Shown here one piece after another: positions 4,919-39,452 of a DNA stretch of 64,000 nt; position 1 is the first letter of the stretch; each line of letters starts with the position of its first letter. The DNA comes from Flavihumibacter solisilvae (GTDB lineage Bacteria > Bacteroidota > Bacteroidia > Chitinophagales > Chitinophagaceae): positions 62,001 to 126,000 of the forward strand of contig NZ_JSVC01000018.1 in NCBI RefSeq assembly GCF_000814475.1, read 5' to 3'. The notes under the pieces were generated by a model. That model did no database searches and was not told the DNA's origin. It was given only the letters and a program-made list of their open reading frames with translations. The position numbers and the translations under genes are program-made.

Positions 4919-5734
4919 TTAATATTGCTCCTGGTCATTGGGGAAATCCACTGAACGTACGTCTTTAACATATTGCTGTACGGCCTGGGTTATCTGCTCA
5001 TGCAGGTTCAGGTACTTGCGGAGGAAACGGGGATTGAATTCATTATTGATCCCCAGCATGTCATGCATCACGAGCACCTGTCCATCGCAGAAATGACCCG
5101 CACCAATTCCAATGGTAGGAATATGCAGGCTTTCAGAAACGACCTTGGCCAGCTGCGCCGGGATCTTTTCCAGCACGATTGCAAAACAACCCGCTTCCTG
5201 CAGTGCAAGGGCATCACGCTTAAGCTTTTCTGCTTCTGCTTCTTCCTTTGCCCTTACCGTATAGGTGCCGAATTTATAAATGGATTGCGGGGTCAGTCCG
5301 AGGTGGCCCATTACAGGAATGCCAGCATTCACGATCCTGCGGATGCTGTCGGCAACTTCTTCACCACCTTCAAGTTTGATGCTGTGACCACCAGTCTCCT
5401 TCATCATGCGGATAGCAGAAGCCAGCGCGATATCGGAGTTCGACTGGTATGCACCAAACGGCAGGTCAACAACCACGAGGCAACGGTCAATACCCCTCAC
5501 GACACACTGGGCATGATAGATCATCTGGTCGAGGGTAATGGGGACAGTCGTCTCATGCCCGGCCATAACATTACTTGCCGAGTCTCCCACCAGGATAACA
5601 TCAATGCCCGCCGCATCAAAGATGCGAGCGAATGAATAATCGTATGCAGTGATCATGGAGATCTTTTCACCGGCCGCCTTCATTTTGAGAAGGGTGTTGG
5701 TGGTGACCTTTTTTACTTCGTGATGAACAGACAT
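4919..5734 (-). CDS. panB: 3-methyl-2-oxobutanoate hydroxymethyltransferase
   Basis: A 271-residue PanB, normal length. It transfers a hydroxymethyl group from methylene-tetrahydrofolate to 2-oxoisovalerate, giving ketopantoate, the first committed step to pantothenate and coenzyme A. Characteristic stretches are [19 protein letters not shown] near residue 30, the metal-binding LVGDSASNV, the GGEEVADSI segment, and GHLGLTPQS, followed by [15 protein letters not shown]. Cytoplasmic, (beta/alpha)8 barrel. It lies 23 bp downstream of ppx on the same strand and is probably the last gene of a ppk1-ppx-panB transcript. No panC or panD is nearby. Confidence 0.95.
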
Positions 5735-5757
5735 TGTGAGTTTTTGAGAGTGGAAAA

Positions 5758-6645
5758 TTATTGCGATTGCCGGACTTTTTCATAAAGAATATGGATAAGT
5801 CCGTCAGCGAGCCCGATCTTGGGTACATAGATCTCGCGGGCATCGGCCCATCGCATAACGTTAACGTATATACTAAGCGCCGGCACAATTACGTCGGCGC
5901 GGTCTTCGCGAAGGTTGTACAGCCGCATCCTGTCTTCAACAGAAAAGCTGCTCAATTCCTTATGATAGTCTTTCAGCAGTTCCAGCGGCAGTGGCTTGCC
6001 ATCTTTTTTCTTTGAAAGAGAAAACACCTTGTTGATATTCCCGCCTGAACCGATGCAGGTGATCTCTTTGAAACCTTTGGTCTGCATGCGGATATAATCC
6101 TTCATCTTATCCCACAATTCATCAGGAACCTGGTTCTTCAACAGGCGGATGGTGCCGATATTAAATGATTCCTTAAAGATGAGTTTGTTATCGCTGAAAA
6201 AAGTGAGCTCTGTACTGCCACCGCCCACATCAATGTAGAGGTAGGAGTGATCCGTATCCATGTTTTCGGCGATATGATTCTCATAAATGAACGATGCTTC
6301 TTCGTCGCCGCTGATCACTTTTATTTCAATACCCGTTTCTTTCAACACGCGATCGATGATGCGGTTTGAATTTTTTGCATCACGCATCGCCGAAGTGGCA
6401 CATGCAATGTAATGCTTCACTCCATACACATCGATCAATGCGCGGTATGCCTTAATTGTTTTGAGAATATGGTCTTCCTTTTCCGGGGAAATGGACTGGG
6501 TTTCAAAAACGTCAAAACCAAGCCTGAGGGGCACTCTTACCAGGTTAAGCTTATTGAACCGGTTTCCGCCGGTTCCATCCTGCACCACATCTGTAATGAG
6601 CAGGCGGGCGGCATTACTGCCTATGTCGATTGCTGCGAGTCTCAA
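5758..6645 (-). CDS. Ppx/GppA family phosphatase (exopolyphosphatase-like)
   Basis: A 295-residue protein of the ASKHA fold, with the Ppx/GppA N-terminal signature [14 protein letters not shown] at residues 4-17, the phosphate-binding DVGGGSTEL near residue 140 and [10 protein letters not shown] near 200. It is the short, two-domain form, lacking the C-terminal HD extension of E. coli Ppx. Such enzymes remove terminal phosphate from polyphosphate or pppGpp. The 4-bp overlap with ppk1 upstream (ATGA type) couples it to the polyphosphate synthase and favours polyphosphate as substrate; that choice is inference. Confidence 0.9.
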
Positions 6646-8789
6646 AGTGTTTCTTCAATTTTTAACGCCTCGGCTGTGGGGGCCATCGGGGTTGCCGGTG
6701 TTTCTTCAAAAACAATGGCTTTACTTTTCTTCGACAGGAGATAACTGTACAATTCGAGCTGTGACCTGACCTTCTTTCCATCCGTTCGCACATATTGATT
6801 GCTCAGTGCATTGTCCAGCACCCTTGCCTTTACATTATCGTTCAGCTGGATAGCCATCATATTCTTCAACACTTTGCGGATACTTTCATCAAACACAGGG
6901 CATGTTACCTCAACGCGGTGATCCAGGTTTCTTACCATCCAGTCGGCCGAAGATATATAAACTTTTTCTTTGCCGCCGTTGTGGAATGCAAACACCCGCG
7001 CATGCTCCAGGTATTCATCGATGATACTGATGGCCTTGATTGGCTTGCGGAATTTTTTACCCTCTGCATACATACAGAAGATGCCACGGACAATCAGGCT
7101 TACGGGAACGCCTGCCCGTGCGGCTTCGGTGAGTTTATCAATCAGGATTTCATCCGAAAGTGAATTCATTTTCAGGATGATCCCCGAAGGTTTTTTCTTT
7201 TTTGCTGCCCTGATCTCCTGGCCGATAAGTTTCAGCAATTCACGCCTTAGTGTCCCAGGGCATGGCAATAAGGTCTTGCAACCTTTCAGGATGTCGGGAT
7301 GTGTCTTATGTTTTTCGATGTACAGGAAGACGCGGTTGATATCTGCCATGATGCCACGGTGCGATGTAAGCAGGCAGTGATCGCCATAGATCTTTGAAGT
7401 GGACTCATTTAGGTTGCCGGTGCTTACAAATCCATATTGGATGGTCCGGTTCTGGATCCGTTTGCGGATGATACAGAGCTTGGCATGGATCTTCATATTC
7501 GGAATGCCCAGCAGCACTTTCACGCCTTCTTCTTCAAGCCTTTCTTTCCATTCCATATTGGCTTCTTCTTCGAAGCGTGCACGTAGTTCCAGCATCACCG
7601 TAACCATTTTGCCGTTACGAACGGCATTGATGAGTGCGTTCACGATCTTGCTGTTTGAGGCAAGCCGGTACGCGGTTATTTTGATGGAAACGACGTCCGG
7701 GTCAATGGCAGCTTCCCGCAGCAGTTCGATCACCGGGTTAAAGGAATGATAGGGGAAACTGAGCATGACGTCATTATGCAGGATCGCATCCGTGACCCGT
7801 TGTGTACCCGTGAGCAGTGGATGCAGGAAGGGCTTCCTGCGCTGCGACCTTTTGGGAAATACGTCCGGAAAATCCATAAAATGACGGAAATTATGGATCC
7901 GTCCACCCGGAATGAGGTTATCCTTCCGGGCCAGGTTCATTCTTCGCATCAGGAATTCCAGCAGGCCTGAGTCCATCTCCTTATCGTACACGAAACGCAC
8001 CGGCTTGCCCTTGCGGCGGTTCCGCACACCTTTTTCGATCTTCTGGATCAGCGAAGTGGAAATGTCATTGTCGATATCGATCTCAGCGTCCTTGGTGACT
8101 TTAAACACCCAGGAATCGTATTTATCATACCCGAAATAGGAGAAGATGGCGGGAATGTTGAAGCGGATGATGTCCTCCAGCAGGATTATATGATTTTCGC
8201 CTGCTGGTGCCGGTAATTGTACGAACCTGCCCAGTGCTTTCGACGGCACTTCGATCAGGGCGTATTTCTGCTCAAATGCGGTATTCTGGCGGGTCATGAC
8301 TACGCCCAGGTAAATGGATTTATCGCGCAGGTAGGGGAGCTGGGGGATCTGCTCGATCATCAGGGGAATGGTGTTGACCCTCACTTCCTCCTCGAAATAC
8401 TGCTTCACGAACACTTTCTGTTCGCGGTTCAGTTGTTTTTCGGTGACCAGGAAGATCTTCTCCTTTTCCATTTCGAGCCGGATATTCTCCCAGATATGGT
8501 TGAATTCGCTCTGCTGCCGGAGTACCAGGATCATGATCTCTTCAAGGATCTTGTCGGGCGACTGCTCCAGGTGCATGTTCAGTTTCACTTTCTTACCCCC
8601 GAATTCGATCATGCGCCGCAGGGTTGCTACCCGGACCCGGAAGAATTCGTCCAGGTTATTCGAAAATATGCCTAAGAACCGGATCCTTTCCCGTAGTGGC
8701 ACAGTGGCGTCGGCCGCCTCCTGCAGCACCCGGGCGTTGAATGATAACCAGCTGATGTCGCGGGGGATGAGCTTTCTCTTATTGTCCAT
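6642..8789 (-). CDS. ppk1: Polyphosphate kinase 1
   Basis: A 715-residue PPK1, full length. It reversibly polymerises the gamma-phosphate of ATP into polyphosphate. The four-domain order is intact: N domain (RDISWLSFNARVLQEA, residues 10-25), head domain (to ~310), then two phospholipase-D-like C domains. The autophosphorylated histidine is H435 in NMKIHAKLCII, and the C2 domain contains the SSADWMVRNLDHRVEV stretch near 630. The gene overlaps ppx by 4 bp. The start at 8789 (MDNKRKLIPRDISW) matches the family N-terminus. Divergent from the ribosomal-protein operon across a 236-bp region. Confidence 0.97.
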   Translation of the reverse strand: MDNKRKLIPRDISWLSFNARVLQEAADATVPLRERIRFLGIFSNNLDEFFRVRVATLRRMIEFGGKKVKLNMHLEQSPDKILEEIMILVLRQQSEFNHIWENIRLEMEKEKIFLVTEKQLNREQKVFVKQYFEEEVRVNTIPLMIEQIPQLPYLRDKSIYLGVVMTRQNTAFEQKYALIEVPSKALGRFVQLPAPAGENHIILLEDIIRFNIPAIFSYFGYDKYDSWVFKVTKDAEIDIDNDISTSLIQKIEKGVRNRRKGKPVRFVYDKEMDSGLLEFLMRRMNLARKDNLIPGGRIHNFRHFMDFPDVFPKRSQRRKPFLHPLLTGTQRVTDAILHNDVMLSFPYHSFNPVIELLREAAIDPDVVSIKITAYRLASNSKIVNALINAVRNGKMVTVMLELRARFEEEANMEWKERLEEEGVKVLLGIPNMKIHAKLCIIRKRIQNRTIQYGFVSTGNLNESTSKIYGDHCLLTSHRGIMADINRVFLYIEKHKTHPDILKGCKTLLPCPGTLRRELLKLIGQEIRAAKKKKPSGIILKMNSLSDEILIDKLTEAARAGVPVSLIVRGIFCMYAEGKKFRKPIKAISIIDEYLEHARVFAFHNGGKEKVYISSADWMVRNLDHRVEVTCPVFDESIRKVLKNMMAIQLNDNVKARVLDNALSNQYVRTDGKKVRSQLELYSYLLSKKSKAIVFEETPATPMAPTAEALKIEETL

Positions 8790-8914
8790 TCCTATCTGCC
8801 TTTGGCCCTCAAATTAGGCAAATGTCTGCGCGCCCCCGAATTCAAAATTGAAAATAATAGTTTAAAAAGGGCGGATTGTGATCAGCCGGGGTGGGCCGGG
8901 TCGTCCCAATGGCC

Positions 8915-8935
8915 TATTTTTGCACCCGGCCGGGT
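8915..8935 (+). promoter_or_regulatory. Upstream -7 box followed by a 12-bp palindrome in the ppk1/rpmB spacer
   Basis: TATTTTTG (8915-8922) is a perfect TAnnTTTG box; two bases later comes the perfect palindrome ACCCGGCCGGGT (8924-8935), placed about where transcription would begin. It may be a second promoter for rpmB with a 5' hairpin or an operator. It differs from the 14-bp repeat unit found elsewhere in its centre. Function unproven. Confidence 0.3.
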
Positions 8936-8969
8936 AAACGGACGGACCGCGCCGAGAATATTTTTGAAT

Positions 8970-9004
8970 TTTGAATTTTTCCTTTTGATTTTTCCCTACC
9001 TTTG
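8970..9004 (+). promoter_or_regulatory. Promoter of the rpmB-rpmG-DUF4295-ftsY block
   Basis: TTTG (8970-8973) and TACCTTTG (8997-9004) match the Bacteroidota -33 and -7 elements with 23 bp between them, slightly longer than usual. The -7 box ends 21 bases before the rpmB ATG. The AT-rich stretch from 8957 to 8996 fits a strong ribosomal-protein promoter. Confidence 0.55.
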
Positions 9005-9025
9005 CCGTCCTAAATTTTGACAGTC

Positions 9026-9262
9026 ATGGCTAGAGTATGTCAGGTTACGGGTAAAACGCCGATCACTGGTCACCGCGTATCTCACTCGAATATCAAGACA
9101 AAGCGCAGGTTCCTTCCGAATCTGCTGACAAAGAAGTTCTATTTGGCAGAAGAAGACAAGTGGATAACACTGAAACTTTCTGCTGAGGGACTGCGGACCA
9201 TTAACAAGAATGGTTTGTATTCAGTAGTAAAGGACCTGAGAGCAAAAGGAGCTAAAATCTAA
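9026..9262 (+). CDS. rpmB: 50S ribosomal protein L28
   Basis: A 78-residue L28 starting [12 protein letters not shown]. The ATG at 9026 is chosen over an in-frame TTG nine bases earlier because L28 begins with this string and the promoter's -7 box ends at 9004. The [17 protein letters not shown] segment is typical. Part of the large ribosomal subunit near the E site. First gene of a compact block with rpmG, DUF4295 and ftsY. Confidence 0.97.
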
Positions 9263-9310
9263 TTTACCCTTCGTTCCGGACTCCGGAATAAATTATAAAA
9301 TTGATTAACA

Positions 9311-9493
9311 ATGGCAAAGAAAGGTAACAGAGTTCAGGTGATTATGGAGTGTACCGAGCACAAAACCAGCGGTAAGCCGGGAACAAGCCGTTATATCACT
9401 ACCAAGAACAAAAAGAACACTCCGGAGCGCCTGGAGTTGAAAAAGTTCAACCCGATCCTGAAGAAGGTGACTGTTCACAAAGAAATCAAGTAA
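9311..9493 (+). CDS. rpmG: 50S ribosomal protein L33
   Basis: A 60-residue L33 ([18 protein letters not shown]...). It is the form without the zinc-ribbon CxxC pairs: only one Cys is present, so it should fold without zinc. It lies 48 bp after rpmB and 41 bp before the DUF4295 gene, and all are read together. Confidence 0.96.
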
Positions 9494-9534
9494 GGCGTAT
9501 AACCTGATTTACTCATCAACTAATTCATTATACA

Positions 9535-9708
9535 ATGGCAAAAGCAGCAAAAACGGCGATCAAGACCAAAGACCAGAAGGCAGCAGCAGAAGCTAAGAAC
9601 TGGACAAAAGTGATCAAGGCTGTACGCAGTCCGAAGTCCGGTGCCTACACTTTCAAAGAGGCTATCGTACACAAGGACAAGATCAAGGATTTTCTGGCTG
9701 AAAAATAA
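9535..9708 (+). CDS. DUF4295 family small basic protein
   Basis: A 57-residue, Lys/Ala-rich protein (starts MAKAAKTAIKTKDQKAAAE, ends KIKDFLAEK). The DUF4295 family is confined to Bacteroidota and is regularly placed directly after L28 and L33. Charge, size and position suggest a ribosome-associated protein, but this is inference; no biochemical role is established to my knowledge. The ATG is the only start, 41 bp downstream of rpmG; ftsY follows after 96 bp. Confidence 0.88.
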   Translation: MAKAAKTAIKTKDQKAAAEAKNWTKVIKAVRSPKSGAYTFKEAIVHKDKIKDFLAEK

Positions 9709-34731: not shown

Positions 34732-35136
34732 TTAATACGCTTTCCAGAACTTGTGAAAGGCCTGTGCGGTCTCAAGACATTCGTTGAAGGTTATTGGTTT
34801 GGTAATGTAGGAGTGTGCGCCCAGCTGCATACATTTTTCCATTTCAATGGAATTGATGGAAGTGGAAAAGATGATAACGGGGACTTCCCTGAAACGGTCG
34901 TCGAGTTTAAGCCTGCGCAAGGTTTCGGTGCCATTCAACTTTGGCATGTTAAGGTCAAGAACAATGAGACAGGGGATATTTCCGAGGTCATATTCCCCGG
35001 AAAGCAGTTGCAGTGCGTGTTCACCATCATCAGCAAAGTTTATGGTGTTGCCTGCATTTATCATTTCCATTGCATCCCTGATGATTTCCTTGTCTTCAGG
35101 ATCATCGTCAGCAAGTAAGATTTTCCACCTTTTCAT
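34732..35136 (-). CDS. Single-domain response regulator (receiver only)
   Basis: A 134-residue CheY-like receiver of the Rcp1 subtype. Acidic pocket D10/D11/D12, phospho-acceptor D61 in LIVLDLNMPKLNG, and K113 in YITKPI. There is no DNA-binding or enzymatic output domain. It overlaps the histidine kinase gene by 4 bp and is the last gene of the stressosome operon, so it is the likely phosphorylation target; its downstream partner is unknown. Confidence 0.93.
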   Translation of the reverse strand: MKRWKILLADDDPEDKEIIRDAMEMINAGNTINFADDGEHALQLLSGEYDLGNIPCLIVLDLNMPKLNGTETLRRLKLDDRFREVPVIIFSTSINSIEMEKCMQLGAHSYITKPITFNECLETAQAFHKFWKAY

Positions 35137-36779
35137 AACTCTGACCGTTTTACCAGTTGACTGGGTAATGAAATAAAAAAACTTGCCCCGACATCTTCCC
35201 TTGCTTCCGCCCAGATCCTGCCCTGGTGCAATTCAACAATTTTCTGGCAAATGGCAAGGCCAAGACCGGTGCCTTCATAAGCCTCCCGGTTATGCAGGCG
35301 CTGGAACAACGTAAAGACCTTGGGAAGATACTTTTCATCGAACCCGATACCATTGTCTTCAAACACAATCTCGTATTGGCCATTCCTTTCCGTGCATCGG
35401 ATATTGATTACAGGGGTGCGCGACGTGCTGGAATATTTAAGGGAGTTGCCGAGTATATTCTCAAATAGCTGGCGCATCATGCCTGCATCCCCGCCAACAG
35501 TGGGAAGCGATGAAATATTAAGCTGCGCATTTTTTTCCGTAATGGCAATTTCGAGGTCCTGCAATGCATCCTTCACAATTATGTTGAGATCGACAGGTTT
35601 AAACTCTAACGGTTTGCTGTTAAGGTGCGAGAACAGCAGCAGGTCCTGGATCAGTGCCCTCATACGCATTGAAGCGGAATGCATATTCCTGAGCAGGTCG
35701 CTTCCGCGGTTATCCAGCACCGTTTCATATTGGTTCAGCAGGTAATCGCTGTAAAACAACAGTTTCCTGATTGGCTCCTGGAGATCATGCGATGCTATAA
35801 ATGCAAACTGCTGCAGTTCTTTGTTGCTCCTGTTGAGTTCGTCAACATAAGTCTGAAGCATCTTTTGATTCAATTCGAGCTGAACCTGTGCCTGTTTTAA
35901 TTCGACATTGTCCTTCAGTGTTTCTTCGTAGACCTTTTGCGCGTGGATATCAACCATGTACCCGATCCAGTATTGCAGTTCATCTTTGTCATCCCGAAAA
36001 GGAGTAATGGACACCATGTGCCAGAAATAATCTGCATCATTACCATTGCGGAATCGTGCCTGGGTCCGAATCACTTTTGCATTCCTGGCAGAATGACTTT
36101 TCAGGATATGTGAGAATGCATCGTAGTCTTCTTCATGCACTATAGACCTCCAGCCATCGGTATTCAGGCTTTCAATGGTCTGCCCGGTAAATTTGGAAAG
36201 CCATTCATTAGCATACAGTAAATTTCCTTCCAACCCGAGGGAAAAGATGATCAGGGGCAATGAATTGGTAAGTGTCTTATATTGGCTTTCGCTTTTTTGA
36301 AGACGCTCAGACATTTCCTGCATCTGCTCGTTTTTCCGTTTGATTTCTTCATAAGGTGAAACAGGAGGTTCGTTGCGGAAAAGCGTGCGCCATTCATCGA
36401 GTTTACGGATGTCTGCTTTTAAAAAGGCAGGAACAGCATAATATAATTCAATCGAAGTGGATCCGCCGTTGTTGAGAACCTGGTATTTATTTACCAGTCG
36501 CTTCGCATATTCCAATCCCCTTTTTGCATTTTCGCCCGTTTGTTGGTTGGTAAGCGATGCCACAATAAAATCATCTTTAAGGTCCGACTTTACCCCCAGG
36601 ACCAGGTAACTTCTTTTACCTGACTCAATAGATGTGCGTGCCACTTCAGAAACAGCGGTTGCAAATGATGTCTGGGCAGACAAAGACAGTCCGGAAAGCT
36701 CGGCCAGCTTCATTGAGCGTTTGTGCGCGAGGATCAGGTCCATTTCATTGTCCAACGCAATTTTTGCTATCTCGTCCAT
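35133..36779 (-). CDS. Histidine kinase with N-terminal RsbT-like domain and PAS domain
   Basis: A 548-residue soluble kinase without membrane segments. Residues ~1-120 resemble a degenerate RsbT/RsbW-type ATPase fold (SFATAVSEVARTSIESG in the N-box position). A PAS domain spans about 165-285, a coiled coil 285-320, then HisKA with H331 in FIASHDLQEPIRKLLF, and HATPase_c 395-545 with the N box GNSLKY, the G1 box FEDNGIGFDE and GTGLGLAICQKIV. The N-terminal domain suggests that it reads the same RsbR-RsbS platform as RsbT, which is inference. Separated by one base from the SpoIIE-type gene and overlapping the receiver gene by 4 bp. Confidence 0.88.
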   Translation of the reverse strand: MDEIAKIALDNEMDLILAHKRSMKLAELSGLSLSAQTSFATAVSEVARTSIESGKRSYLVLGVKSDLKDDFIVASLTNQQTGENAKRGLEYAKRLVNKYQVLNNGGSTSIELYYAVPAFLKADIRKLDEWRTLFRNEPPVSPYEEIKRKNEQMQEMSERLQKSESQYKTLTNSLPLIIFSLGLEGNLLYANEWLSKFTGQTIESLNTDGWRSIVHEEDYDAFSHILKSHSARNAKVIRTQARFRNGNDADYFWHMVSITPFRDDKDELQYWIGYMVDIHAQKVYEETLKDNVELKQAQVQLELNQKMLQTYVDELNRSNKELQQFAFIASHDLQEPIRKLLFYSDYLLNQYETVLDNRGSDLLRNMHSASMRMRALIQDLLLFSHLNSKPLEFKPVDLNIIVKDALQDLEIAITEKNAQLNISSLPTVGGDAGMMRQLFENILGNSLKYSSTSRTPVINIRCTERNGQYEIVFEDNGIGFDEKYLPKVFTLFQRLHNREAYEGTGLGLAICQKIVELHQGRIWAEAREDVGASFFISLPSQLVKRSEL

Positions 36780-36780
36780 G

Positions 36781-37797
36781 TCACAGAGTTATTTTACAGC
36801 CAGCCACAGATGTATCATCGGTATGCCGGGCGAAGTCCTTCACAAGGCAGGCACATATGACTGACAAGTCATAGCGCAAAATGCCGTTATGCCTTAACAG
36901 GTCCCATCTTGATTTCAGTCCGTCACTGCAGCACAGTAACAATTGTCCTTTTTCATACTCGATTTCCTGTACGTTAAGTGTTCGCGGCAAATTCATCCCG
37001 ATGATACCGTTGTAGGCGATATAATTTTTTGAAATCGTAGGCCCGGTTATCCTTGTGCTGATGTTTCCGACGCCGCACAATTTCCAGGATTTGGATTTCA
37101 TGTCAAATATGACGACTGTTCCGACCAGTCCCCTGGTCTTTTTGACTGCGGTATTCATGGAACGAATGATCTCGACAGGATCGCAGGAATTGCAGTCCAG
37201 GAAAGAATTCCCCGCCTGCCTGACAGCTTCTGCCGCTTCGGGCCCGTGACCAAGTCCGTCGCCGAGAAACATCTTTACCTTATCTTTTTCGACTTTGTAT
37301 ACAAAGCCGTCACCACTTAGCTCTTCACCGGTTTTCGGAAAAACAAGGGACCTGATCTCAGTAACTGTTTTCTTAAGTGACATCGGCCGTTCTTTTTCAA
37401 AGATCCTGGCGAGTACAATGGTTCCCCAGCCTTTTTGGGAATACAACTGGAATACATCAGACAACCTTTTGATGGACCCCAGCCCGATTCCCAGGGTTTG
37501 CCTGGAAGAGACGCCATCCAGCATAACCCGGTTAATATCGGCAATACCCGGACCACTGTCGATACTGATGATCTCAATCCCGGCAATATTATTTTCTTCC
37601 ACCAGCTTAACCAGCAGTTCCCCACCTCCCGCATGTTTAACCAGGTTGCTTGCGAGTTCCGCGACTATGATATCGATTTCGCTAATCTTTTTTGCAGAAA
37701 ACCCTGCCGATACACAAACATTATGTATTTCCTTTTTTAAAATGGCCAGGTAACTCCTGTCAGGAGCTTTTAAAACAATATGGGTATCATTACCCAT
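36781..37797 (-). CDS. RsbT-like ATPase fused to SpoIIE/RsbX-type phosphatase
   Basis: A 338-residue two-domain protein. Residues 1-135 are a GHKL ATPase of the RsbT/RsbW kind (AELASNLVKHAGGGELLV at the N box, DSGPGIAD at G1, GIGLGSIKRLSD at G2). Residues ~145-335 are a PP2C-type phosphatase of the SpoIIE/RsbX family with metal-binding Asp residues in SGDGF (D163), LGDGLGHG (D180), CSDG and DDTSVAG. In the Bacillus system RsbX resets the stressosome by dephosphorylating RsbR and RsbS. The start at 37797 (MGNDTHIVLKAPDR) overlaps rsbT by 8 bp; an ATG at 37854 would add 19 residues. Confidence 0.88.
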   Translation of the reverse strand: MGNDTHIVLKAPDRSYLAILKKEIHNVCVSAGFSAKKISEIDIIVAELASNLVKHAGGGELLVKLVEENNIAGIEIISIDSGPGIADINRVMLDGVSSRQTLGIGLGSIKRLSDVFQLYSQKGWGTIVLARIFEKERPMSLKKTVTEIRSLVFPKTGEELSGDGFVYKVEKDKVKMFLGDGLGHGPEAAEAVRQAGNSFLDCNSCDPVEIIRSMNTAVKKTRGLVGTVVIFDMKSKSWKLCGVGNISTRITGPTISKNYIAYNGIIGMNLPRTLNVQEIEYEKGQLLLCCSDGLKSRWDLLRHNGILRYDLSVICACLVKDFARHTDDTSVAGCKITL

Positions 37798-38203
37798 TTT
37801 TCCATTTAAGTATGGAGACGATTGTTCCTTCACCCGGTTTACTTTTAATGTCAAATTCGTTCACAAGTCTTCTCGCACCGGGCAAGCCAAGTCCCAGGCT
37901 CTTTCCTGTTGAATAGCCATCTTTCATGGCCAGGTCAACGTCCTTAATACCCGGTCCCCTGTCTTCGAAAAGCAAACGGATCCCGCTGTTCCTGTTATCG
38001 CTGACAACTTCTATTAAAGCGGTACCGCCACCGGCATATTTCAGCATGTTCCGCACCAGCTCGCTGGCGGCAGTTATGAGTTTAGTCTGATTGACAAGGC
38101 TCATACCAATTTTCACCGCATATTCCTTTACACGGTTCCGAAAAGGGATCACATCCTGTTCCTTCTCGATTTTCATGGTATCCTTATTCAGTACTATTCT
38201 CAT
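37790..38203 (-). CDS. rsbT: RsbT-like switch kinase of the stressosome
   Basis: A 137-residue serine/threonine kinase of the GHKL fold. N box SELVRNMLKYAGGGT (residues 48-61), G1 box EDRGPGIKD (80-88), G2 GLGLPGARRL (104-113). In B. subtilis RsbT is held by the RsbR-RsbS complex, phosphorylates both, and is released to activate RsbU. Here no RsbU-like protein with an RsbT-binding helical domain is present, so the released kinase must have another partner. It overlaps rsbS by 20 bp. Translation may start at M1 or M10. Confidence 0.9.
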   Translation of the reverse strand: MRIVLNKDTMKIEKEQDVIPFRNRVKEYAVKIGMSLVNQTKLITAASELVRNMLKYAGGGTALIEVVSDNRNSGIRLLFEDRGPGIKDVDLAMKDGYSTGKSLGLGLPGARRLVNEFDIKSKPGEGTIVSILKWKNG

Positions 38204-38582
38204 CGTCTTCTGTTTCTTCCGGTTCTTCCCCGATCCTGTCTTTTAATAAATCCATGCCTTTTTCAACATTGAGCGCGGTATGCACTCCTTTCAATTCAAG
38301 TCCAAGCTCAATAAGGGTAATGGCTACAGCAGGTTGCATACCTACAACCACAGTTTCTGCGTCCATAATTTTGGCCATGCTGCCAATATTTCCAAGGATC
38401 CTGCCCATGAAAGAATCGACGATGGACAGTGCCGAAATATCGATCAGCACTCCCCTTGCTTCAGTCTTGTTTACAGCCTGGATCAAATCCGATTCCAGGT
38501 TAGTAGCCAGCCGGTCGTATAGGTCAATCTGGATGGTGACCAGCAAAAATTTCCCCATCCGGAGTATTGGAATACGATCCAT
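38184..38582 (-). CDS. rsbS: RsbS-like STAS core protein of the stressosome
   Basis: A 132-residue single STAS domain. The phospho-acceptor position is S57 in ALSIVDSFMGRIL, matching the Ser that RsbT phosphorylates in RsbS. The C-terminal ~15 residues are almost all acidic (EEPEETEDDENSTE), an added tail not typical of B. subtilis RsbS. With RsbR it should form the pseudo-icosahedral shell. Six bases after rsbR, 20-bp overlap with rsbT. Confidence 0.88.
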   Translation of the reverse strand: MDRIPILRMGKFLLVTIQIDLYDRLATNLESDLIQAVNKTEARGVLIDISALSIVDSFMGRILGNIGSMAKIMDAETVVVGMQPAVAITLIELGLELKGVHTALNVEKGMDLLKDRIGEEPEETEDDENSTE

Positions 38583-38588
38583 ATGTAA

Positions 38589-39452
38589 TTAGATAGCTTT
38601 TTCCCTTTGAGATTTTTTTACTTCCAGTTTGAGCATGGTAAACGCATATTTGAGTGCGCTTGCGAGAGATGCTTTTGTAACGATGTTGGAGAGATCGATA
38701 CCGAGGTGCACGACAGTTTGTGCAATTTCGGGGCGGATGCCGCTTATGATGCATTCGGCTCCCATAAGCCGGGTAGCCGCTACTGTCTTAATGATATGCT
38801 GTGCAACCAGTGAGTCAACCGCAGGTACACCGCTGATGTCGAGGATAGCGATTGTGCTGCCACTTTCCACGATCTCTTCAAGCAGGCTTTCCATCACTAT
38901 CTGGGTGCGGGCGCTGTCGAGGGTTCCGATAATAGGCAATGCCAGGATACCATCCCAGACGCGGATCACCGGGGTTGAAATTTCCGCGATCTCGTCTGTC
39001 TGGCGCAGGATCACTTCCTCCCTGCCTTTTATAAAGGTTTCAAAAGTTGTTATGCCAAAGCTGTCCATCAGTTTATTCATGTTCAGCGTTGCGTCAACCA
39101 ATGCTAAGGGGTCGTCTTTCAGCTCAGCCTGCAATGTTTTCAAAACCGCATCCTTCAGGCTGAAAATAAAGGTTCCCGTTTCCCTGGGCGAATAACCCTG
39201 CCTTGCCCTGGATATCGAAATTCCTGCGAGGATCTCATTCACCCCTTCAAAATCGGCGGATTGCGGGTCGGTTATATTAGTTGAAGTCAATGATTTCAGC
39301 AAACTGTCGAGAAGTTCGTCAGATTGTGTTCTTAACTCTTCATTCGACATGAGGTCTTCTCTGAGACCTGCATCTTTCAGCTGGAAATTCATCCAGTCTT
39401 CCAATAGTTGTTTCTTCTTCTTTTGCAGAAGCCTGGAAATGTCTTGTTTCAT
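38589..39452 (-). CDS. RsbR-like stressosome sensor (RsbRD_N plus STAS)
   Basis: A 287-residue protein, first gene of the operon. Residues 1-155 are an all-helical N-terminal domain of the RsbRD_N kind (starts QDISRLLQKKKKQLLEDWM), the variable sensory turret, distinct from the globin-like domain of B. subtilis RsbRA. Residues 165-280 are STAS, with S214 (AVDSLVAQHI) and T246 (PEIAQTVVHLGI) at the two phosphorylation positions known from RsbR. There is only one RsbR paralogue here, so the shell would be simpler than in Bacillus. The signal sensed is unknown. Confidence 0.88.
   Translation of the reverse strand: MKQDISRLLQKKKKQLLEDWMNFQLKDAGLREDLMSNEELRTQSDELLDSLLKSLTSTNITDPQSADFEGVNEILAGISISRARQGYSPRETGTFIFSLKDAVLKTLQAELKDDPLALVDATLNMNKLMDSFGITTFETFIKGREEVILRQTDEIAEISTPVIRVWDGILALPIIGTLDSARTQIVMESLLEEIVESGSTIAILDISGVPAVDSLVAQHIIKTVAATRLMGAECIISGIRPEIAQTVVHLGIDLSNIVTKASLASALKYAFTMLKLEVKKSQREKAI

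Follow-up and report, generated by a model that had tools for sequence, protein, structure and literature searches.

The output histidine kinase of a stressosome operon in Flavihumibacter solisilvae begins with a degenerate copy of the switch kinase RsbT. The operon consists of rsbR, rsbS, rsbT, an RsbT-phosphatase fusion, a PAS histidine kinase, and a single-domain receiver, and lies at 34732-39452 of the window, a term used here for the whole stretch of 64,000 nucleotides analyzed (contig NZ_JSVC01000018.1, positions 62,001 to 126,000). A sequence-only reading had described these six genes and their spacings, all of which proved exact, and had asked how a serine-kinase switch reaches a histidine kinase. 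The sequence offers a possible answer in the RsbT-derived N-terminus of the kinase, a domain that the earlier reading overlooked and that is the actual finding. An RsbT-derived domain on the output kinase suggests how the stress complex could hold and control that kinase; if true, a serine-kinase fold has been reused as a binding module, putting a histidine kinase under a partner-switching complex.

The N-terminal domain of the kinase, referred to as HKn (residues ~1-118), is a degenerate RsbT paralog by both sequence and predicted fold. Pfam returns no match in the first ~160 residues up to E 1, and none to RsbU_N (PF08673) in the kinase at the same limit. BLASTP of residues 1-140 against the RsbT of the same operon gives E 3e-8 with 26% identity over 119 columns, and hhalign between HKn and RsbT profiles of seven sequences each gives a probability of 96.2 (E 2.4e-9). 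Searched against its own genome, the HKn profile matches HKn itself and RsbT and nothing else. The AlphaFold2 model of HKn, built from a seven-sequence alignment, has a predicted local distance difference test score (pLDDT) of 84.5 and a predicted template modeling score (pTM) of 0.79. All 16 Foldseek matches of this model at E <= 0.001 are RsbV/RsbW, UsfX, or SpoIIAB entry chains. The ten best structures in VIA-align are RsbW, SpoIIAB, UsfX, and the RsbW domain of Rv1364c (Z 11.5-13.9), followed lower down by SiaB (Z 10.5), LvrC (9.1), and the best histidine-kinase ATPase domain (DesK, DosS, and similar; 7.5).

The ATP-site motifs that define an active Ser/Thr kinase of this fold, namely the N-box asparagine, the DxGxG motif, the ATP lid, and the G2 glycines, are not present as a set in HKn. 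The window copy has a threonine at the N box, no DxGxG, no lid, and only the second G2 glycine. Among the 27 degenerate HKn domains of the class (Bacteroidia), the DxGxG (G1) box and the lid are missing in all 27 and the first G2 glycine is lost, and HKn is thus predicted from its sequence to be no longer able to bind ATP. When N-box asparagine and DxGxG are counted together, the pair is found in 43 of 43 RsbT proteins, 39 of 39 fusion copies, and 12 of 43 domains fused to a kinase or phosphatase; one of these twelve (L001) is a chance match by alignment, which leaves 11. Given the intact motifs of the fusion, there may be two active GHKL kinases in the module. Conservation within the 27 dead domains is uneven, with a mean majority frequency of 0.83 in helices 1-2 and of 0.44 and 0.48 in the remainder. 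The same measure gives 0.86, 0.73, and 0.83 for RsbT and 0.67, 0.61, and 0.73 for the fusion domain. The loss of the ATP site together with the retention of helices 1-2 favors binding rather than catalysis. An H box is retained by the kinase core at every one of the 29 loci checked; by automatic patterns alone, the N box went undetected in 7 of them and the G2 box in 5.

The domain is tied to the stressosome across genomes. Of 147 sampled genomes of the family, 16 are matched by the HKn profile and 16 by the RsbS profile, and the two sets are identical. In a sample of 345 genomes of the phylum, RsbS is found in 13, of which seven belong to the class (own genome included) and all carry HKn, and six lie outside it. 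The HKn profile matches 12 genomes of this sample, comprising the same seven, four in which the match is RsbT itself, and one with an RsbT-kinase fusion (G327); no genome without RsbS has a match. Over both samples, every one of the 22 genomes of the class that have RsbS also has HKn, which is dead in 21 of them and intact in the other. The earlier reading of a stressosome wired to a histidine kinase therefore stands as a strong linkage (the same 16 of 147; 22 of 22), but one already known in kind.

Gene order gives a similar picture. The kinase search returned 11 loci, seven of which align from residue 1. In six of the seven, all six genes recur in unchanged order; among them is L007 (Chitinophaga sp. 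E66 chromosome, 5334-9640), which has frame breaks in rsbT and the kinase that may reflect either sequencing error or decay. The recurrence of this order in relatives argues for linkage beyond chance. The seventh, L005, has the kinase and receiver only, and comes from a metagenome-assembled genome in which the RsbR-S-T-fusion genes lie on another contig that ends 271 bases past the fusion match. In a wider set of 28 loci (the window, L001-L006, and L098-L118), the order R-S-T-fusion-HKn kinase is found in all but L005. L007 was left out of this set and of all alignments except that of the receiver, and L004 was left out of the fusion-domain set.

The remaining parts of the output are less constant. 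The PAS domain is absent from five of the 28 kinases, and a receiver adjoins the kinase in 17 loci and is missing in 11. An automatic test found 15 receivers, to which L100 and L101 were added, as their receiver open reading frame (ORF) starts within the kinase gene (in L100, kinase 6189-7829 and receiver 7741-8235); the receiver of L104 is weak (75 bits, gap 71). The proposal that the output is phosphotransfer to a receiver without an output domain is thus supported only in part, and the receiver as an invariant output is rejected. The variation of PAS and receiver among loci, set beside the retention of HKn in every RsbS-bearing genome of the class, is counted in favor of HKn as the link to the stressosome.

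Relatives with an intact ATP site were found within the family and beyond it. Locus L112, from the same family, has the R-S-T-fusion-kinase order with no PAS domain and no receiver, and its HKn has an intact N box, DKGKGI, and GRGLGI; it is sister to the 27 dead HKn domains (100/99; midpoint root). In G327 (L119), an intact RsbT domain sits on a histidine kinase, and a REC-REC kinase gene lies between it and the fusion. RsbS matches were found in 99 plasmid records and RsbT matches in 109; these lists are dominated by 58 Phaeobacter and 17 Deinococcus records, many apparently near-copies, and 18 distinct loci were examined. An RsbT-like N-terminus is present on the post-fusion protein in 14 of the 18. 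Twelve of these proteins are histidine kinases, from Deinococcus (3), Sphingomonas, Paraburkholderia (2), Caballeronia, Phaeobacter, Salipiger, Alloyangia, Embleya, and Nonomuraea; for one Paraburkholderia locus (L138), the ORF list has no clean open frame for rsbR or for rsbT. The other two are Streptomyces SpoIIE phosphatases with a degenerate RsbT-like N-terminus (L145:8062-9438 and L146:7894-9639), and the shared operon place and N-terminus suggest that the input domain may serve different output enzymes.

The strength of these matches varies. Against RsbT, hhalign scores 54.1 for L145 (shuffle maximum 21.5), 50.3 for Embleya L144 (20.1), and 39.9 for L146 (15.6). Weak matches among the 14 are those of Caballeronia, Nonomuraea, and Streptomyces L146; the RsbT profile hidden Markov model gives 22 bits for Caballeronia L131 and 15 bits for Nonomuraea L139, both scores without a shuffle control. 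In the Nonomuraea locus, the scan picked up no RsbT gene in the interval from RsbS to the fusion. A tblastn search of 72,556 plasmids with the window HKn (limit E 0.01) found two places, at E 1e-4 and 3e-3, both of them histidine-kinase N-termini beside RsbR-RsbS-RsbT (RST) genes. This search misses the other fusions and is therefore specific but not sensitive.

A cross-phylum tree of 79 rows was made from 18 of 34 loci plus the plasmid loci, with a midpoint root and few columns. A branch of this tree with support 92/88, short of the strong threshold, has 23 of the 24 HKn rows on the same side, and the fusion domains form their own group (100/98), apart from RsbT. L131 and L139 were flagged as long branches of unsure placement, and L139 was dropped from the cross-phylum profile. 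A fork (97/89) joins the intact Paraburkholderia copies with those of the class and leaves out the dead copy of Caballeronia; if the fork is right, there were at least two losses of the ATP site. We tentatively propose, at somewhat less than even likelihood, that a third copy of RsbT, the one attached to the output protein, represents an input domain of ancient origin and cross-phylum spread that holds stressosome output kinases and phosphatases, and that its ATP site was lost independently in Bacteroidia, Caballeronia, and Actinomycetota to give a pseudokinase docking domain that replaces the route through released RsbT and RsbU_N.

Published work on RsbT describes its release from the stressosome surface upon stress and docking models that put it on both RsbS and RsbR, with RsbV-RsbW and SpoIIAA-SpoIIAB as templates (PMC9237128). 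These templates are the same folds that HKn matches best. With HKn at the RsbT site, as we infer, the kinase dimer would be a stressosome client, and we hold the chances to be evenly balanced that the histidine kinase itself docks in this way via its dead RsbT domain. The kinase dimer would dock on RsbS and RsbR through two dead RsbT domains, at the surface used by the real RsbT. Upon stress, RsbT would phosphorylate RsbS and RsbR, the STAS surface would change, and RsbT and the docked kinase would be released or re-set. The movement would pass through a helix at residues 142-171, itself a low-confidence prediction, to the PAS domain and the HisKA helices, where it would switch phosphotransfer to the adjoining receiver, or to others where the receiver is missing. 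The phosphatase half of the RsbT-RsbX fusion would reset RsbS and RsbR. The full-length kinase model (pLDDT 69.9, pTM 0.35, with the helix after HKn partly <50) served for secondary structure only.

Several observations weigh against docking through a dead RsbT domain or against its generality. The HKn profile matches no PDB chain by sequence, while the RsbT profile does match SpoIIAB. The decay of the ATP site is incomplete: of the 27 dead domains, 74% still have the second G2 glycine and 10 (37%) the N-box asparagine. The 28 loci were mostly picked via HKn, so the presence of HKn there is no count, and it is the RsbS-based 22 of 22 that is. Outside the class, five of six Bacteroidota RST modules are followed by a HisKA_3 kinase with RsbU_N (four over the Pfam cut-off and L122 just under), the sixth being G327; in L120, the only one of these modules tested with Pfam for it, a LuxR-type response regulator comes next. 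The same operon place is therefore filled either by a kinase with an RsbT receptor or by one with an RsbT relative. Among plasmid loci, the RsbT-like N-terminus was not seen in 4 of 18, namely Variovorax (2), Vibrio, and Flammeovirga, and in the two Variovorax operons the next histidine kinase is without any RsbT-like domain. For the output kinase of Vibrio, a hidden RsbT domain is unsupported (hhalign 13.8 versus 40 shuffles with mean 12.4 and maximum 19.9), and for the Flammeovirga phosphatase one is not claimed on a score of 22.4 that has no shuffle control of its own. In the cross-phylum tree, L139 falls among the RsbT rows, and just 1% of bootstrap trees unite HKn when L139 is included. 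Lastly, the conserved helices could instead serve RsbT binding or dimerization, and the present data do not tell docking on RsbS/RsbR from pairing with RsbT.

The Flammeovirga plasmid (Bacteroidota, outside the samples) carries RST genes followed by a SpoIIE phosphatase with HATPase_c_2 and an anti-sigma factor antagonist, and is a counterexample to universality of the HKn wiring. The Vibrio kinase (L142:7969-11142) and the Flammeovirga phosphatase (L149:1-1623) each have an N-terminal stretch of ~110 residues that Pfam does not match, after which a similar line, E-K-x-R-D-x-L...K-N-x-x-L, was noted by eye. These N-termini are possibly further decayed RsbT domains, a suggestion that the shuffle and hhalign tests made do not support.

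Among the alternatives, the one that survives best has the dead domain act as the receptor of RsbT or of the fusion's RsbT half, such that RsbT freed from the stressosome pairs with HKn in the manner of RsbW or SpoIIAB monomers and switches the kinase. RsbW and SpoIIAB, the closest folds of HKn, are dimeric kinases, and the five RsbU_N kinases of other Bacteroidota hold the same operon place. RsbT is usually described as a monomer on STAS partners, which speaks against pairing, and on balance we consider this explanation unlikely. It draws on precedent nonetheless, as RsbT activates RsbU via the N-terminal domain of RsbU, and kinases with RsbU_N are known (PMC12143880).

Direct phosphorylation of the histidine kinase or the receiver by RsbT on Ser/Thr, with the N-terminal domain incidental, is appreciably less probable. 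Direct phosphorylation has been suggested for outputs without RsbU_N (PMC9237108), but it leaves unexplained why 22 of 22 RsbS-bearing genomes of the class retain the RsbT-derived domain although 21 of them have lost its ATP-site motifs. We give little credence to a further scheme in which the fusion is the main switch, competing through its intact RsbT domain with RsbT and HKn on the stressosome while the kinase reports the position of the phosphatase: the ATP motifs retained in all 39 fusion copies and the position of the fusion, which comes after RsbT and before the kinase in 27 of the 28 loci (all but L005), fit such a scheme, but the grouping of fusion domains away from RsbT indicates that partner choice may differ. 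That the kinase and receiver are an unrelated two-component pair, downstream by chance, is hardly credible given the strict RsbS co-occurrence, the conserved gene order, and the RsbT-derived input domain, even though the window pair has the full two-component motif set and could work alone and the pair stands on a separate contig in L005.

The features of the operon are listed in the table, in which Pfam assignments are matches above the curated cut-off of each family, sub-cut-off matches being omitted.

Features of the stressosome operon (window positions)
Feature	Position	Strand	Properties
rsbR	38589..39452	-	287 aa; RsbRD_N sensor + STAS; PF14361 8e-28, PF01740 6.7e-15; 74-80% identity to six relatives
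rsbS	38184..38582	-	132 aa; single STAS; PF01740 3.9e-8; 76-89% identity to six relatives; gap 6 to rsbR
rsbT	37790..38203	-	137 aa; GHKL switch kinase; HATPase_c 3.4e-12; N-box Asn, DRGPGI, GLGL intact; overlap 20 with rsbS
RsbT-phosphatase fusion	36781..37797	-	HATPase_c_2 2.4e-9 + SpoIIE 1.4e-9; overlap 8 with rsbT
Fusion, RsbT-like domain	37393-37797	-	ATP-site motifs intact
Fusion, SpoIIE/RsbX-type phosphatase domain	36781-37347	-	GDG, DGLGHG, SDGL, DDTS motifs; 38.6 bits vs cut-off 25
PAS histidine kinase	35133..36779	-	548 aa; PAS + HisKA + HATPase_c; SHDLQEP, N, G1, G2 boxes present; gap 1 to fusion
Kinase, HKn domain (residues 1-118)	36426..36779	-	degenerate RsbT paralog
Kinase, PAS domain (residues 181-279)	35943..36239	-	Pfam PAS_9 1.5e-9
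Receiver, single-domain	34732..35136	-	134 aa; phosphoacceptor Asp61; PF00072 1.3e-20; overlap 4 with kinase

The fusion is taken to start at ATG 37797, while the longest ORF would begin at TTG 37854. A hairpin of seven pairs with a four-base loop (window 37780-37797) spans this start codon at the rsbT/fusion overlap. A promoter scan found 8 candidates versus 7.9 expected. A convergent gene lies 18 bases beyond the receiver, the last gene of the operon. The first three genes have the predicted make-up of an RsbRST module: a sensor plus STAS in RsbR, a single STAS with a serine in RsbS, and complete ATP-site motifs in RsbT. The candidate phosphosite of RsbS is Ser57 in VDSF, of which DSF is conserved among relatives; those of RsbR would lie in IIGTLD and at the serine of PAVDSLV at the second site. 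These positions correspond to the known phosphosites of such proteins, and the phosphatase motifs of the fusion are of the kind that binds metal. The SpoIIE/PP2C domain with its motifs marks the fusion as an RsbX-type phosphatase, with a predicted role on RsbS and RsbR. At the level of motifs, the kinase (H, N, G1, G2) and the receiver (Asp, Thr, Lys) appear orthodox; D10-D12, D61, T92, and K113 of the receiver are invariant in eight aligned sequences.

Some loci differ in copy number or surroundings. In Sediminibacterium roseum (L003:3604-6993), two tandem rsbR-rsbS-rsbT copies precede a single fusion and kinase, and L099 has a second rsbR. A long catalase gene lies upstream of the operon in three loci (L001:1512-3695, L004:2552-4732, and L006:778-2991), preceded by a DUF892 gene in L004 and L006, and in Paraburkholderia L133 katE follows the operon on the opposite strand. 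At 3 of 35 stretches, an association of catalase with the operon is too rare to claim.

The sigma-B outputs of Bacillus are missing from the operon, as had been stated earlier: Pfam finds no RsbU, RsbV, RsbW, or sigma B in it. SpoIIE matches in the 5.4-Mb genome are limited to the fusion of the operon, and none of seven sigma-factor matches genome-wide passes the SigB/F/G cut-off; RsbU with SigB, the mark of a sigma-B cascade, was thus found neither in the operon by Pfam nor in these two genome searches. Six STAS matches occur genome-wide, two of which are the RsbR and RsbS of the operon and one a single-domain open frame of 145 aa on contig C17. An HATPase_c_2 search of the genome for RsbW-type proteins did not list the RsbT of the operon and is therefore too insensitive to exclude RsbW in the genome.

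Compared with the sigma-B stressosome of B. subtilis, the window operon shares RsbR, RsbS, RsbT, and an RsbX-type phosphatase and differs in being without RsbU, RsbV, RsbW, and SigB. The earlier reading had noted that RST modules without sigma B are known, and two published accounts bear this out, with two-component genes beside RST and two-component outputs already described (PMC9237108; PMC10014275). The closest described arrangement is that of Vibrio vulnificus, in which rsbRSTX, like the window operon, has no sigma-B, includes an X phosphatase, and is directly followed by a two-component kinase and its partner (VvD1/VvD2), while its RsbR is a heme globin sensor in contrast with the RsbRD_N type of the window (PMC9237108; PMC10014275). 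The Vibrio kinase of L142, in the same place, has no RsbT-like domain above shuffles, and its neighboring regulator has an HD domain, whereas the window receiver has no output domain. RsbU_N, the RsbT receptor, is found on known kinases (PMC12143880), and histidine kinases of RST operons headed by it have been described (PMC9237108; PMC12143880). Such kinases occupy the same operon place as the window kinase, theirs headed by an RsbT receptor domain and the window's by an RsbT-derived one. The anti-sigma kinases RsbW, SpoIIAB, and UsfX appear from the modeled structure to share the fold of HKn (Z as above), but HKn heads a histidine kinase and has neither a G1 box nor an ATP lid.

The fusions of Deinococcus, Sphingomonas, Paraburkholderia, Phaeobacter, Salipiger, and Alloyangia have an N-terminal RsbT-like domain on the post-fusion kinase, as in the window. 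Unlike the window, these plasmid fusions keep their ATP motifs intact, and some have a fused C-terminal receiver while others have HisKA_2; they are annotated merely as ATP-binding protein or (sensor) histidine kinase. Deinococcus radiodurans R1, whose locus lies on plasmid MP1 (DR_RS15570-15595), provides a laboratory host with an intact version of the fusion, and the RsbT-derived head makes the coupling of stressosome and kinase concretely and cheaply testable. No description of an RsbT-like domain on a histidine kinase was found in a literature search whose reach did not extend to subscription reviews and figures. Two-component genes in place of sigma-B are known; the RsbT-derived head of the output kinase appears to be new.

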